Shown here in pieces: positions 13,480 to 17,907 of a stretch of DNA of 64,000 nucleotides. The DNA comes from Glutamicibacter creatinolyticus (GTDB lineage Bacteria; Actinomycetota; Actinomycetes; Actinomycetales; Micrococcaceae), in assembly GCF_006094275.1 (NCBI RefSeq), contig NZ_CP034412.1, forward strand, positions 310,001 to 374,000. The letters run 5' to 3'. The notes beneath the pieces are model-generated. The model saw only the letters and a list, made by a program, of their open reading frames with translations, did not search any database and was not told the origin of the DNA. The translations under genes and the position numbers were made by a program. Within the stretch, counting starts at the first letter, position 1; each line of letters begins with the position of its first letter.

Positions 13480-14172
13480 TTAACGGTGCGGGGGGTCGAT
13501 TTCTCGGGCGTTGAGATTCACCAGTTGGAGCTGGGTGGCCACGATCAGTGCCTGGACGCGGTCACGCACGCCAAGCTTGTGGAAGATTTTGGCCATATGC
13601 GATTTAACGGTCGTCTCGGCGACATCGAGGTACTTGCAGATTTCGGTGTTGTTCAGGCCTTGGGACAAGAGGGTGAGGATCTGCATCTCGCGGGCGGTGA
13701 GGCCTAGCTCGTCAGCGACACCTTCGGAGGAGGCGGGCGGGCTGTAGGCGCGCTGCACGGCTGCGATTAGGTCCGTGGACACCGAGGGGGAGATGGCGGC
13801 GGTGCCGGAATGCACCGACAATACTGCCTGAACGATTTCCGCCGGTTCGGTATCCTTCACGAGGTATCCCGAGGCGCCGGCTAGCAGGACGGGCACCAGG
13901 TAATCGTCGGAGGAGAAGGCGGTAATCGCCAGGATTGCTGTTTGCGGATTGTGGTGTTTGATCTGGCGGGTGGCCTCGACGCCGTCCATGATCGGCATCT
14001 GCAAATCCATGAGAACAACATCCACCTCGTGAGAGGAGCAGTAGTTTACTGCTTCCTGTCCATTTTGTACGGAATTTAATAACAAAATGGCATCGTCTGT
14101 TGCTAGGATTGTGCCCAAGGCACGCCGGATGAGCGGTTCGTCGTCCGCAATCAGAACTCTGACTTGCTCCAT
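13480..14172 (-). CDS. NarL/LuxR-type response regulator
   Basis: This 230-residue protein has a receiver domain with acidic pocket DDE at residues 10-12, phospho-acceptor Asp56 in VVLMDLQMP, and conserved Thr and Lys in AITAF and GYLVKD. A LuxR-type helix-turn-helix follows at residues about 155-215 (LTAREMQILTLLSQGLNNTEIC...VKSHMAKI). It is transcribed divergently from the peptide gene and kinase on the other side of an 83-bp promoter region. It is inferred to be the kinase's partner and to regulate that promoter. Confidence 0.92.
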   Translation of the reverse strand: MEQVRVLIADDEPLIRRALGTILATDDAILLLNSVQNGQEAVNYCSSHEVDVVLMDLQMPIMDGVEATRQIKHHNPQTAILAITAFSSDDYLVPVLLAGASGYLVKDTEPAEIVQAVLSVHSGTAAISPSVSTDLIAAVQRAYSPPASSEGVADELGLTAREMQILTLLSQGLNNTEICKYLDVAETTVKSHMAKIFHKLGVRDRVQALIVATQLQLVNLNAREIDPPHR

Positions 14173-14255
14173 GGGTAATTCAACTTCCTTTGCGGGAACC
14201 GAAAAAGTGGCTGCTTAGTGTCGAAGTATATAAGTTCTAGCGTTGGGGATGGATT
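14173..14255. promoter_or_regulatory. Divergent promoter of the peptide/two-component locus
   Basis: These 83 AT-enriched bases separate the response regulator from the peptide gene. A TATATAAG segment at 14227-14234 could be the -10 box toward the peptide and kinase. GGGGATGG at 14245-14252 is the peptide ribosome site. CTTA...TAAG arms flank the -10 region, a possible but weak operator. Confidence 0.45.
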
Positions 14256-14441
14256 ATGAAACTCGTATATGCAGCAGCTGCACTGGCCTTGGCTATCTCG
14301 CCATTTGCCGCCGTTCAGTCCGCCGCACCCGCCCAGGCCGCACCGGCCGTGGCACTGGCAGGACCTCCGGTGGCTTCGCCGGCCGGCCTTGGTACTGAAT
14401 TCTCGAAGTGGATGTGCAAGCGCTACGGAATCTCCTGCTAG
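14256..14441 (+). CDS. Small secreted peptide precursor, candidate signal peptide for the adjacent kinase
   Basis: This 61-codon gene encodes a basic start (MK), a hydrophobic core of Ala/Leu (residues 4-20) and an APAQA signal-peptidase I site near residue 28. The Pro/Ala/Gly-rich mature part of about 33 residues ends in WMCKRYGISC, with Cys54 and the terminal Cys61 spaced to form an 8-residue ring. It has its own ribosome site, faces away from the response regulator, and its stop is 41 bp from the kinase start, so the two are probably co-transcribed. I know no described family. The arrangement resembles pheromone-kinase-regulator loci such as agr or com. A cationic antimicrobial or a surface-sensor ligand are alternatives. 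Confidence 0.72.
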   Translation: MKLVYAAAALALAISPFAAVQSAAPAQAAPAVALAGPPVASPAGLGTEFSKWMCKRYGISC

Positions 14442-14482
14442 TCCAAAGTGCGGAGCATTTATAGCATCGCCCTGAACAGCCT

Positions 14483-15670
14483 ATGAAGGACCGAATTGGT
14501 CTGCGCCTAGGCAGGTTTTTAGGCGGCAGCAATGCCATCATCTGGCTCGGGGCGATTGCTATTGCCGCAATCACCGTTTCGGAGCTCGTGACGGTCCTGC
14601 AAAACGGTCTTGAGAATACAGAAGGTCGGGCAGCTCGTGGAGCAGTGCTTGGGCTTTTGATTCTGGTGATCCTCATCGTCGGATACCGCTTTGCAGGAGC
14701 TTCTCTGGGCGCGTATATCGCCGTGCTCTTGTTTGGGTTCGGAGACGCGGACCTCTTACTCCTTTTAATTGTTTCTGAAGCAGTTTTCTCAGCATTAGCA
14801 GCCAGCACTAGATCGTCGTTGCTTAGAACTATCTATTTAGCGATGCAGATAGCGTGGTTTGTTCAGTTCGGATTGCGGGCGCCTGACGACGTTATCACTC
14901 TTGTCATTCTGGCTCCGGTAGTTTTTATTACGTTCGGAGCAACGCGGAGCATCTTTGTATTGCTCGAAAAGAACCAGCAGAGTGCACAGCAGATGGAGCT
15001 ATTGAGGGAACGTACCGAAAGCGCGATCCGTGACGAGCGTAAGAATATTGCGCGGGACCTGCACGACATCGTCGCGCACGACATCACCATTGTTGCGATG
15101 CAATCCAAGGCGGCGAAATTTGCAAACAATGAGAGCACTTTCCGCGAGGCGGTTGAAGTGATCTCCAAATTGAGTTCCGAGACTTTGCACGATTTGCGGC
15201 TAATGCTCAACGTGCTCCGTAGTGACGGGACGATGAGTGACATAGGTGCAGATCTCGACGGGAAACCGTCGGCAACTACTATCCAAGCGCTCCAGGGTGT
15301 ATCGGTGTTTTCCCAGCGCCTCGCCGACGCTGGGTTCGACGTGCACACAGATGTCGACGAAGAAATCACTCAATTGCCACGATCGGCACATACTGCTCTC
15401 TATCGAGTGATGCAGGAAGCAACTACCAACATCATTAAGCACGCGGAGCCTGGCAGTCAGTGCTCAATTTCGCTCAAGCGCCGCGGAGACACTGCGGTGC
15501 TGCGCATGGTGAATCAAGTGATGACTAGCAAGAAGATCGCCACCAACGACGCGTTGTGGGGTGGCAGTGGTCTCATTGGCATGGAAGACCGCATGCGGGC
15601 TTTCGGAGGCCAATTTGAGGCCGGAAAGCATGCTCACCAGTGGATTTTGGTCGCTGAGATCCCCTTCTGA
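14483..15670 (+). CDS. Membrane sensor histidine kinase (HPK7/NarX-like)
   Basis: This 395-residue kinase has five to six hydrophobic segments in residues 15-160 with almost no extracellular loops. A short coiled linker follows, then a HisKA_3 domain with phospho-acceptor His194 in ARDLHDIVAHD, and a C-terminal ATPase domain (QEATTNIIKHA N-box near residue 310, GLIGMEDRM G-box region near residue 363). The multi-helix sensor without a large extracytoplasmic domain suits recognition of a small ligand at the membrane. It lies 41 bp behind the peptide gene and divergent from the NarL-type regulator. No good Shine-Dalgarno is visible, so it may depend on coupling with the peptide gene. Confidence 0.9.
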   Translation: MKDRIGLRLGRFLGGSNAIIWLGAIAIAAITVSELVTVLQNGLENTEGRAARGAVLGLLILVILIVGYRFAGASLGAYIAVLLFGFGDADLLLLLIVSEAVFSALAASTRSSLLRTIYLAMQIAWFVQFGLRAPDDVITLVILAPVVFITFGATRSIFVLLEKNQQSAQQMELLRERTESAIRDERKNIARDLHDIVAHDITIVAMQSKAAKFANNESTFREAVEVISKLSSETLHDLRLMLNVLRSDGTMSDIGADLDGKPSATTIQALQGVSVFSQRLADAGFDVHTDVDEEITQLPRSAHTALYRVMQEATTNIIKHAEPGSQCSISLKRRGDTAVLRMVNQVMTSKKIATNDALWGGSGLIGMEDRMRAFGGQFEAGKHAHQWILVAEIPF

Positions 15671-15807
15671 CCCACCCCCTCCTACTTAAGTACTATTTCG
15701 CTTCACAGAATGACGGGTTAAGTTAGATATGTATCGGTGAAGACCGATCACCGCGGAAGACGAATGACGGGGTTTTGCGAGTGGCTCCTGATTTTATCCG
15801 CAGTGAT

Positions 15808-15902
15808 TAAAAGGTACGTTGCGTGTACTACGGAGTGTAACTTTCTCGGTGATGTGCCCCCATCGCATGCCGTGTCCGAGAGTACATGCAACGTACCTTT
15901 TA
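15808..15902. repeat. 95-bp element with 22-bp terminal inverted repeats
   Basis: The left arm 15808-15829 and right arm 15881-15902 are inverted repeats with 21 of 22 matches (outer end TAAAAGGTACGTTGC). Inner CTCGG/CCGAG and GATG/CATC segments add further pairing, so the whole unit could fold into one cruciform or RNA hairpin. It sits in the 341-bp gap between the kinase and the nitroreductase gene. It could be a miniature inverted-repeat transposable element or a strong structured terminator. No coding frame spans it. Confidence 0.65.
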
Positions 15903-16011
15903 TAACGCCCAAACGCATTCTGCGTGTGCTTCCACTCACAATCGGTTGCACGGATCCCCAATAATGGCGAACTGTTGAGTTGTAAACGAATTCGCCCCTG
16001 AAGGAGACCCC

Positions 16012-16713: not shown

Positions 16714-17907
16714 CTAGTCCTGTTCTGGGGCCTCGGATTCGCCGCTGAGCAGCCGTTCGGATACCTTCTCCAGCGCGCGTTCCAGCGGGCCGCGAACGAC
16801 TTCTGGCACCTCGATGAACTCGTCGATGACCACCAGGCCCTCGCGTTCGAAGCAGCGCAGCACGCGCTCAACTTCGGGGATGGTCGATTCCAGCTTGGGA
16901 ATCAGGTGATGTTGTTCCTCGGGCAAGTCATCCTTGCCCGGTACTTGCAACGCGAACTCGGCACGCGGCTGGTTGGACGAGGCGGCATTGCTCAAGACGC
17001 CGGCCACCATCTCGGCCACCTCGCCTTGACCGGGAACCGCCAGAGCATTGGTGAGCACGTTGGAGAAGATAACTTCGGCGACGAGCTCCTTGATCAGCCG
17101 GGCGCCTGGGCCGGTGGCGGCGTTCAGGGCGTCCCGCAGGCTCTCGGTGGGCACTGCGTTGGGCGCATCGTAACGCAGCATGGCCGTTCCAATCAGGGCA
17201 TCCCAGTAGGCCGAAAGCCGTGGAATCTGGCCGAGGGAGGAAACTGCCGTTCCATCGGCCGGTTCCCAATCCTTTACTGGGTCCGTGGCGGCCCCATCAA
17301 TCCGCACGTCCATGCCCAAGGCCGCGGCGGCCTGCTGCAGCTGATCGCCGTGCAGCACGCCACTGGGGTCTGTCGGCTGACCCGCGCCAACCCACGCCAC
17401 CAGCTCCCGCGCGGCGAAGACCAGCGGCAACTGCTCCAGTGCGGCGTTGGCCTCGTCGTCCTCCATGAAGGGCACGACGATGGGGGAGTCTCCGGCCATG
17501 CGGGAAAGGAACTCGAAGCTGGCTTTGAAGTCCTCGACGCTGCCGCCGAAGTGGGCGCTTTGACCCAGGAAGACCAGGTACTGCTTCAGCAGCCCTGCGC
17601 TGGCCTTGAGCACTTCCTCGCCCAACGAGCGCAGGTGTCCGAGTTGCTCACCCAGGGCTGTGGAATCCAGGGTTGTCACATCGACTTCCTTGCGCAGCTG
17701 CGCGTGCACGGTTAGCAAGGTGGTCAGCCCCTCCAGCGCGGCGCGGGTTTCGGTGGCAGACTCGTGCTGGAAGTGGCGGTACAAGGCCTGTTTGAAGGGC
17801 TGCAGGGCCTGGCGGACCTCGGTTTCGAAGGGTACCGAGCTCGCGCCGGGGCGGCGCGCGGGGTGGCCCTGGGCGGTCTTCTTCTTGTGCGGTTTGCGTG
17901 ATGCCAT
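16714..17907 (-). CDS. Conserved hypothetical cytoplasmic protein
   Basis: This 397-residue protein has a very basic N-terminus (MASRKPHKKKTAQGHPARR), a mostly helical body rich in Leu/Glu, and an acidic tail. There is no signal peptide, membrane segment or nucleotide-binding motif. The basic tail suggests contact with nucleic acid or ribosomes, but nothing else supports this. It is a single gene between two terminators. I do not recognise the family. Confidence 0.7.
   Translation of the reverse strand: MASRKPHKKKTAQGHPARRPGASSVPFETEVRQALQPFKQALYRHFQHESATETRAALEGLTTLLTVHAQLRKEVDVTTLDSTALGEQLGHLRSLGEEVLKASAGLLKQYLVFLGQSAHFGGSVEDFKASFEFLSRMAGDSPIVVPFMEDDEANAALEQLPLVFAARELVAWVGAGQPTDPSGVLHGDQLQQAAAALGMDVRIDGAATDPVKDWEPADGTAVSSLGQIPRLSAYWDALIGTAMLRYDAPNAVPTESLRDALNAATGPGARLIKELVAEVIFSNVLTNALAVPGQGEVAEMVAGVLSNAASSNQPRAEFALQVPGKDDLPEEQHHLIPKLESTIPEVERVLRCFEREGLVVIDEFIEVPEVVRGPLERALEKVSERLLSGESEAPEQD

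Follow-up and report, generated by a model that had tools for sequence, protein, structure and literature searches.

Does the short peptide encoded beside a two-component pair in the soil bacterium Glutamicibacter creatinolyticus act as a pheromone for that pair? The locus lies within a 64,000-nucleotide stretch (positions 310,001 to 374,000 of NZ_CP034412.1; hereafter, the window) of a genome that consists of one 3.31-Mb contig, and it combines genes for a 61-residue precursor peptide, a HisKA_3 (HPK7) histidine kinase, and a NarL-type response regulator with a structured RNA candidate behind the kinase, all within approximately 2.4 kb (Table 1). An earlier note on this DNA had suggested a peptide-pheromone locus, and the position it gave for a Sec-type precursor, in the divergent promoter and 41 bp before the kinase, holds. 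The RNA was overlooked in that note and was first spotted as unexpected conservation when the sequence past the kinase stop codon was aligned. We consider it rather probable that this actinobacterial locus follows the plan of agr and RNAIII with parts that are unrelated to theirs: a disulfide peptide that acts as autoinducer, a kinase with six helices, a NarL-type regulator, and an effector RNA. A fuller proposal is that agr-like quorum sensing evolved independently in Actinobacteria, with a Sec-exported disulfide-ring pheromone in many lineage-specific ring types, a receptor of class HPK7, a regulator of the NarL type, and an effector RNA of its own, all in one cassette that stays intact as its genomic site changes; for this we regard the chances as evenly balanced.

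A conserved peptide gene linked to a kinase and a regulator

The peptide open reading frame (ORF), which sits between the regulator and the kinase, was recovered directly upstream of the orthologous kinase in each of the 18 Glutamicibacter genomes (E values of 4.5e-8 or better), a group made up of named Glutamicibacter species and records still held under Arthrobacter sp. A 20-row peptide alignment was then used as the query against 295 genomes of the family at E≤1, and 228 were matched, mostly weakly and chiefly over the signal part. Twenty-eight regions from outside the genus were fetched, and 25 of them contained the peptide, the kinase, and the divergent regulator (2 in genus g4, 7 in g15, 14 in g44, and 2 in g48); the other three (L127 to L129) were weak peptide matches without the motif and without a kinase or regulator match. 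The resulting set of 43 loci, 18 from Glutamicibacter and 25 from the other genera, includes only loci with a C-X6-C end, and the regulator is divergent to the peptide gene in every one. As a control, four genomes with 38 HisKA_3 matches between them were taken, and the 30 matches that had loci were scanned. Such an ORF was present at the orthologues of this kinase, four in all and one per genome, and two other loci (L182 and L186) gave regular-expression matches without resemblance to the window peptide. These results demonstrate that the peptide ORF is not a chance ORF. A lack of conservation would have spoken against the pheromone idea, but both the ORF and its cysteine pair are kept in relatives with the same kinase, and the peptide may be the ligand of that kinase.

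Wider searches added one locus. An order search of 396 genomes matched 54 at E≤0.1, and among 30 loci the top three were known members and one further real locus was present in a genome of another family (G511), which carries the same three genes and a peptide ending in GRWACKRLGLFC. Within the family of G511, 4 of 24 genomes were matched, and the motif occurred in G511 alone. A further search of the order (4 of 119 genomes matched at E≤0.01) and one of the class (5 of 118 genomes matched) returned the window's genome and weak matches, and none of the eight loci of these weak matches had a C-X6-C end; such short-motif distribution searches score part of the candidates and are no proof of absence. 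No plasmid copies of the window peptide were found, and it matched no Pfam, NCBIfam, or PHROG family. The other members of the alignment gave three NCBIfam matches (best E values of 0.0013 to 0.0015).

The window precursor reads MKLVYAAAALALAISPFAAVQSAAPAQA / APAVALAGPP / VASPAGLGTEFSKWMCKRYGISC, where the slashes mark two predicted cuts. The ratio of nonsynonymous to synonymous differences (pN/pS) over all Glutamicibacter pairs was near-neutral in the spacer (0.86) and had the values listed in Table 1 for the whole ORF, signal, and core, a pattern expected if the signal serves export, the spacer is dispensable, and the product is constrained except at specificity positions that are free to vary. 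The two cysteines are six residues apart in all 43 loci, and 42 of the 43 precursors contain exactly two. Within this fixed frame, ring position 5 is Gly in 42 loci, ring position 4 is Y, F, W, or L in all 43, and positions 2, 3, 6, and 7 vary strongly. Two residues before the first Cys stands a Trp in 37 loci. The earlier note had also described the peptide as ending in Cys, with a disulfide ring or a thiolactone-like closure. The terminal Cys is correct for the window peptide but is no general rule, as the second Cys is followed by no residue in 3 loci, by one in 30, by two in 9, and by four in 1. Because the one to four residues past the second Cys in 40 of the 43 loci vary in kind and number, thiolactone closure is unlikely and was rejected, and a disulfide between the invariant cysteines is favored. 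Likewise, ComX-like Trp modification was rejected as a universal chemistry, since the Trp is missing from 6 of the 43 loci. The window's genome has a homologue of VKOR, which we take to be an oxidative-folding family. No processing-enzyme gene lies within the cassette, in agreement with the earlier reading of a plain signal peptide in place of a dedicated enzyme.

The kinase matched HisKA_3 above the Pfam cut-off and HATPase_c with 20.5 bits, under the cut-off of 26.4. In an AlphaFold model used for its topology alone (predicted local distance difference test score of 73 and predicted template modeling score of 0.43), the six N-terminal helices are joined by short loops and are compatible with membrane spans. 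Among 17 relatives, identity was 56% for the N-terminal part of the kinase, 72% for its C-terminal part, and 78% for the regulator, and identity to the window's own proteins was 38%, 60%, and 66%, respectively.

Structured RNA candidates behind the kinase

RNAalifold, applied to all 18 Glutamicibacter genomes, gave a structure of 57 pairs, 16 of which showed changes on both sides. In the trimmed alignment, 98.0% of cells were paired, and on all five measures none of 500 shuffles was as good and the true placement stood above every slid version, the structure in this test having been derived from the same 18 sequences. The window copy (15730-15907) folds with -74.6 kcal/mol (z of -5.6). The 18 sequences were made into a covariance model, which gave one sense match per genome, behind the kinase in all 18, together with weaker antisense matches there (at least 12), and under strict filters it had no match in the other 277 genomes of the family. 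When applied to the fetched loci, this model matched 10 of the 14 g44 loci at the same place (E values of 0.00048 to 0.35), six of them via one hairpin alone. In the g44 RNA, 43 of 72 pairs show changes on both sides, and one member reached a z of -7.8; two or three CCCC(C)AAG runs, mostly in loops, are present in all 14 loci. For g15 and g4, 32 pairs were obtained, 17 with two-sided changes, with z values of -3.4 and -4.0 for single members, and the two g48 members had z values of -3.6 and -4.0. Hairpin-rich RNA candidates are found behind the kinase in all four other genera too. Rfam had no match in the window stretch at E 0.1, and in six loci searched at E 0.5 it gave two SAM riboswitches elsewhere and nothing for the RNA candidate. 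In a control that used a fixed 240-nt segment behind kinases, 14 of 26 non-system kinases were framed and had z values of 1.05 to -4.15, and four system members had values of -5.6, -3.7, -2.3, and -1.6, so that this measure separates the Glutamicibacter copies only.

The promoter of the RNA was examined in the 25 loci of the other four genera, where the -10 element was placed with patterns requiring TANNNT and a 110-bp stretch was searched with matrices from other genera only and 200 shuffles. A 24-bp box, approximately AAGTATGGCCAAAGGTCTAATGTG, was found 18 to 20 bp upstream of TANNNT in all 25 loci (p of 0.01 or less in each). In both g48 loci, this box is also present at the peptide promoter, and by eye the shared box lies 22 bp before GACAAT there and 22 bp before TANNNT at the RNA promoter. 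Shared 18-mers between the peptide and RNA promoters beat all shuffles in 3 of the 43 loci (the two g48 loci and G130) and in none from Glutamicibacter. These data suggest that the most conserved target of the regulator would be the RNA promoter.

At the Glutamicibacter peptide promoter, a 12-mer occurred once per genome in 15 of the 18 genomes, always 20 to 24 bp upstream of the peptide ATG, and a sixteenth genome had it at the same place with one mismatch; a reversed-pattern control gave 5 matches in 4 of the 18 genomes. As a marker of a regulon, with one mismatch allowed, the 12-mer was rejected (52 matches versus 95 for the reversed pattern). Recurrent second sites were also dropped: one falls in a conserved region that has no long frame and is presumably RNase P RNA, and the other lies just upstream of a gene that we take to be mca-like. 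In the g44 loci L106, L109, L111 to L113, L115 to L118, and L120 to L123, TTGACT-like and AT-rich -10-like hexamers were seen by eye close before the peptide ATG, and with so short a spacing the peptide transcript of these loci may be leaderless.

Behind the kinase of G511 (L160, 1190-1520, minus strand), long hairpins with a z of -6.0 have loops that are G-rich when read on the kinase strand; read on the opposite strand, the loops would be CCCCC like those of g44, and either strand may be the transcribed one.

Table 1. Positions of the features of the peptide locus within the window
Feature	Position	Strand	Description
NarL-type response regulator, 230 aa	13480..14172	-	Divergent from peptide gene; Response_reg and GerE above Pfam cut-offs
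12-mer AAGTATATAAGT at peptide promoter	14224..14235	+	Putative -10 element or operator
GGGG run	14245-14248		Upstream of peptide ATG; ribosome-site-like
Precursor peptide, 61 aa	14256..14441	+	Ends CKRYGISC; kept in 18/18 genus genomes; pN/pS 0.36
Sec-type signal peptide, residues 1-28	14256..14339	+	From sequence; pN/pS 0.21; predicted cleavage site
Conserved core, residues 39-61, candidate mature pheromone	14370..14438	+	From alignments; pN/pS 0.32; putative trimming
C-X6-C ring CKRYGISC	14415..14438	+	Both Cys in 43/43 loci; 31 different rings; predicted disulfide
HisKA_3 (HPK7) histidine kinase, 395 aa	14483..15670	+	Six N-terminal helices, without extracellular domain; Pfam and model
Promoter-like conserved stretch of RNA	15677..15730	+	TTAGATAT at 15723-15730 (putative, -10-like); from alignments
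Structured noncoding RNA candidate, ~180 nt	15726..15904	+	57 pairs, 16 compensated
Long terminal hairpin of RNA	15808..15902	+	Arms 15808-15829 and 15881-15902
Exposed C-rich loop GCCCCCAUC	15857..15865	+	Invariant in 18/18 Glutamicibacter
397-aa protein	16717-17907	-	No Pfam match

A proposed signaling circuit and its rivals

In the circuit that we propose, the precursor would be exported via Sec and cleaved by signal peptidase, and would then be trimmed to its conserved core, as the near-neutral spacer suggests. The cysteine pair would close by a disulfide to form an 8-residue ring, which the adjacent HisKA_3 kinase would sense through its membrane part of six helices. Linkage and family both suggest that this kinase phosphorylates the divergent NarL-type regulator, whose most conserved output would be the RNA promoter, bound by the regulator at the box that precedes the -10 element in four genera. 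The RNA would work post-transcriptionally, in Glutamicibacter and g44 plausibly through exposed C-rich loops that act at ribosome sites as in RNAIII. The locus has what is expected of peptide pheromones in general, namely a conserved secreted peptide linked to a kinase and variable specificity positions. Co-variation between peptide and kinase was measured by partial Mantel tests for the kinase N-terminal part given the C-terminal part and for the reverse. In the 14 g44 loci, the core tracked the N-terminal part (r of 0.52, p of 0.001; reverse, -0.04), as did the ring in Glutamicibacter (r of 0.25, p of 0.0015; reverse, -0.06) and in all 43 loci (0.16, p of 0.0005; reverse, 0.18).

A number of results weigh against this circuit. 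The ring alone did not clearly track the N-terminal part in g44 (r of 0.25, p of 0.09), the signal and spacer also tracked it in Glutamicibacter (0.33, p of 0.003), the core showed no such tracking over all 43 loci (r of 0.05, p of 0.22; reverse, 0.48), and no difference in co-variation was seen between the outer half of the sensor part and its inner half; peptide-kinase co-variation is thus support of a weak, mixed kind. The box was absent at that spacing from all 18 Glutamicibacter RNA promoters, which have a conserved stretch of their own in its place. At the peptide promoter, it reached p<0.05 in 5 of the 43 loci, both from g48 and 3 of the 18 from Glutamicibacter, and the latter three are doubtful, lying 2 to 9 bp before the ATG; three g44 loci had p values of 0.065 to 0.18, and the rest had none. 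The RNA candidates of g15, g4, and g48 were not detected by the Glutamicibacter model, the RNA loop of g15 and g4 is G-rich and not C-rich, and no target of the RNA was identified here.

The peptide could instead be an output of the kinase pair and not its ligand: a small bacteriocin-like or wall-active effector secreted under the control of an envelope-sensing pair that has the RNA as another output. Most peptide promoters have no clear box, so that autoinduction is only putative. In addition, the kinase matches NCBIfam envelope- and nutrient-sensor models such as LiaS, far under their cut-offs, and its nearest solved chains by profile are those of DesK. Two of the 20 peptides of the alignment, the window peptide not among them, match the lactococcin 972 bacteriocins of NCBIfam weakly (best E value of 0.0015, none above the cut-off). 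We nevertheless consider an output role unlikely, because the cassette has no immunity, export, or modification gene, the peptide and kinase remain linked across changes of neighborhood, the ring and core partly track the kinase N-terminal part, and the ring positions vary freely in a fixed frame. In another alternative, the secreted peptide would serve the kinase as a negative or accessory partner, such as a redox cofactor of the sensor acting through its Cys pair, and would not be a signal between cells. The invariance of that pair and the strict linkage to the kinase would be explained, and a redox role requires no ring variation beyond drift, but 31 rings among 43 loci, with strong variation at four positions, and the second cut suggested by the neutral spacer both fit a released signal better, making the cofactor role quite improbable.

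The stretch behind the kinase could instead be the 3' end of the kinase transcript, with its terminator, or the leader of the next gene. It starts close past the kinase stop codon, its last element is a long hairpin with UUUU behind it, and strong folding of the 3' flank (z of -4.15) was also seen for 1 of the 14 other testable kinases. Yet a promoter-like box and TANNNT lie upstream in all 25 loci outside Glutamicibacter (TANNNT having been required by the patterns used), the next gene varies between genera, 5 of the 12 named loci lack a nitroreductase gene within 3 kb and their genomes still have the RNA, and several conserved hairpins and loops go beyond a terminator. A separate regulatory RNA, as in the proposed circuit, is preferred to a terminator or leader, which we judge to be doubtful.

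Known systems and genomic surroundings

The likeness to agr and RNAIII of Staphylococcus is functional only and lies in the plan of a ring peptide, a membrane kinase, a regulator, and an adjacent RNA with conserved C-rich loops (Glutamicibacter and g44). The agr types have an HPK10-type kinase, a LytTR regulator, and a thiolactone made by AgrB, whereas this locus has a HisKA_3 kinase, a GerE regulator, a plain Sec signal, and a probable disulfide. AgrB was seen neither in the cassette nor in the Pfam-scanned neighbors, no genome-wide search for it having been made. The RNA, having no Rfam match, falls outside the RNAIII family by sequence and structure. RNAIII itself has two conserved C-rich loops that bind target mRNA, one of them at the ribosome site (PMC2837412).

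The ComQXPA system of Bacillus is similar in its HPK7/HisKA_3 kinase and NarL-type regulator and in the Trp near the peptide end (37 of the 43 loci here), and differs in that this locus has a Cys ring and a Sec signal and in 6 of 43 loci no such Trp. ComX has no Sec signal and carries a prenylated Trp. No ComQ-like prenyl transferase gene was found in the cassette or the examined neighbors, and no genome-wide search was made. In PMC8895600, ComP is itself classed as an HPK7 pheromone receptor with a NarL-type regulator, so the contrast that the earlier note drew between the HPK7/NarL pair and agr/com-type kinases survives, for com, only with respect to the streptococcal kind. The DesK and VraS/LiaS-type proteins are likewise HisKA_3 kinases with a compact helical membrane part and supply the nearest solved chains by profile, and differ in that the NCBIfam models (LiaS) match this kinase far under the cut-off. 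To our knowledge, these kinases have no linked peptide or RNA gene. The protein families of RgaS-RgaR of Clostridioides difficile also differ from those of this locus. That two-component pair is reported to switch on a small RNA as well as a peptide-signal operon, a tie that resembles the present one, but its genes do not form a single cassette and the peptide has no activating effect on the pair (PMC10602386).

A search of the open-licence literature, with subscription papers and preprints outside its scope, turned up no apparent description of this system. If the proposed circuit is correct, the agr plan, a pheromone circuit that ends in a regulatory RNA, would have a second example unrelated to the first, which would raise the question of why that output recurs. 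The locus is a small, complete, testable unit in easily grown bacteria, with 31 natural ring variants for work on receptor specificity. Quorum sensing in Actinobacteria is described as underexplored, with experimental evidence for nine genera (PMC4748050).

The three genes remain together as their genomic surroundings change. In the 12 named loci, a Clp ATPase gene always lies on the regulator side, and 7 of these loci have a nitroreductase gene in the 3 kb on the kinase side; the nitroreductase gene is common to 13 of the 14 g44 loci. Pfam searches of chosen neighbors identified glycine-cleavage genes at two g15 loci, a gene for a UmuC-like polymerase at both g4 loci, a luciferase-like gene at one g48 locus, and, in G511, a gene for a formate/nitrite transporter. 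Two SAM riboswitches (RF00162; 2935-3025 and 7229-7319, minus strand) lie less than 4.5 kb apart and flank the peptide locus in the g48 locus L104. The gene for the 397-residue protein listed last in Table 1 is found near the cassette in all 12 named loci (65 to 71% identity), and a homologue is present in 12 of the 14 g44 loci (41 to 45% identity).
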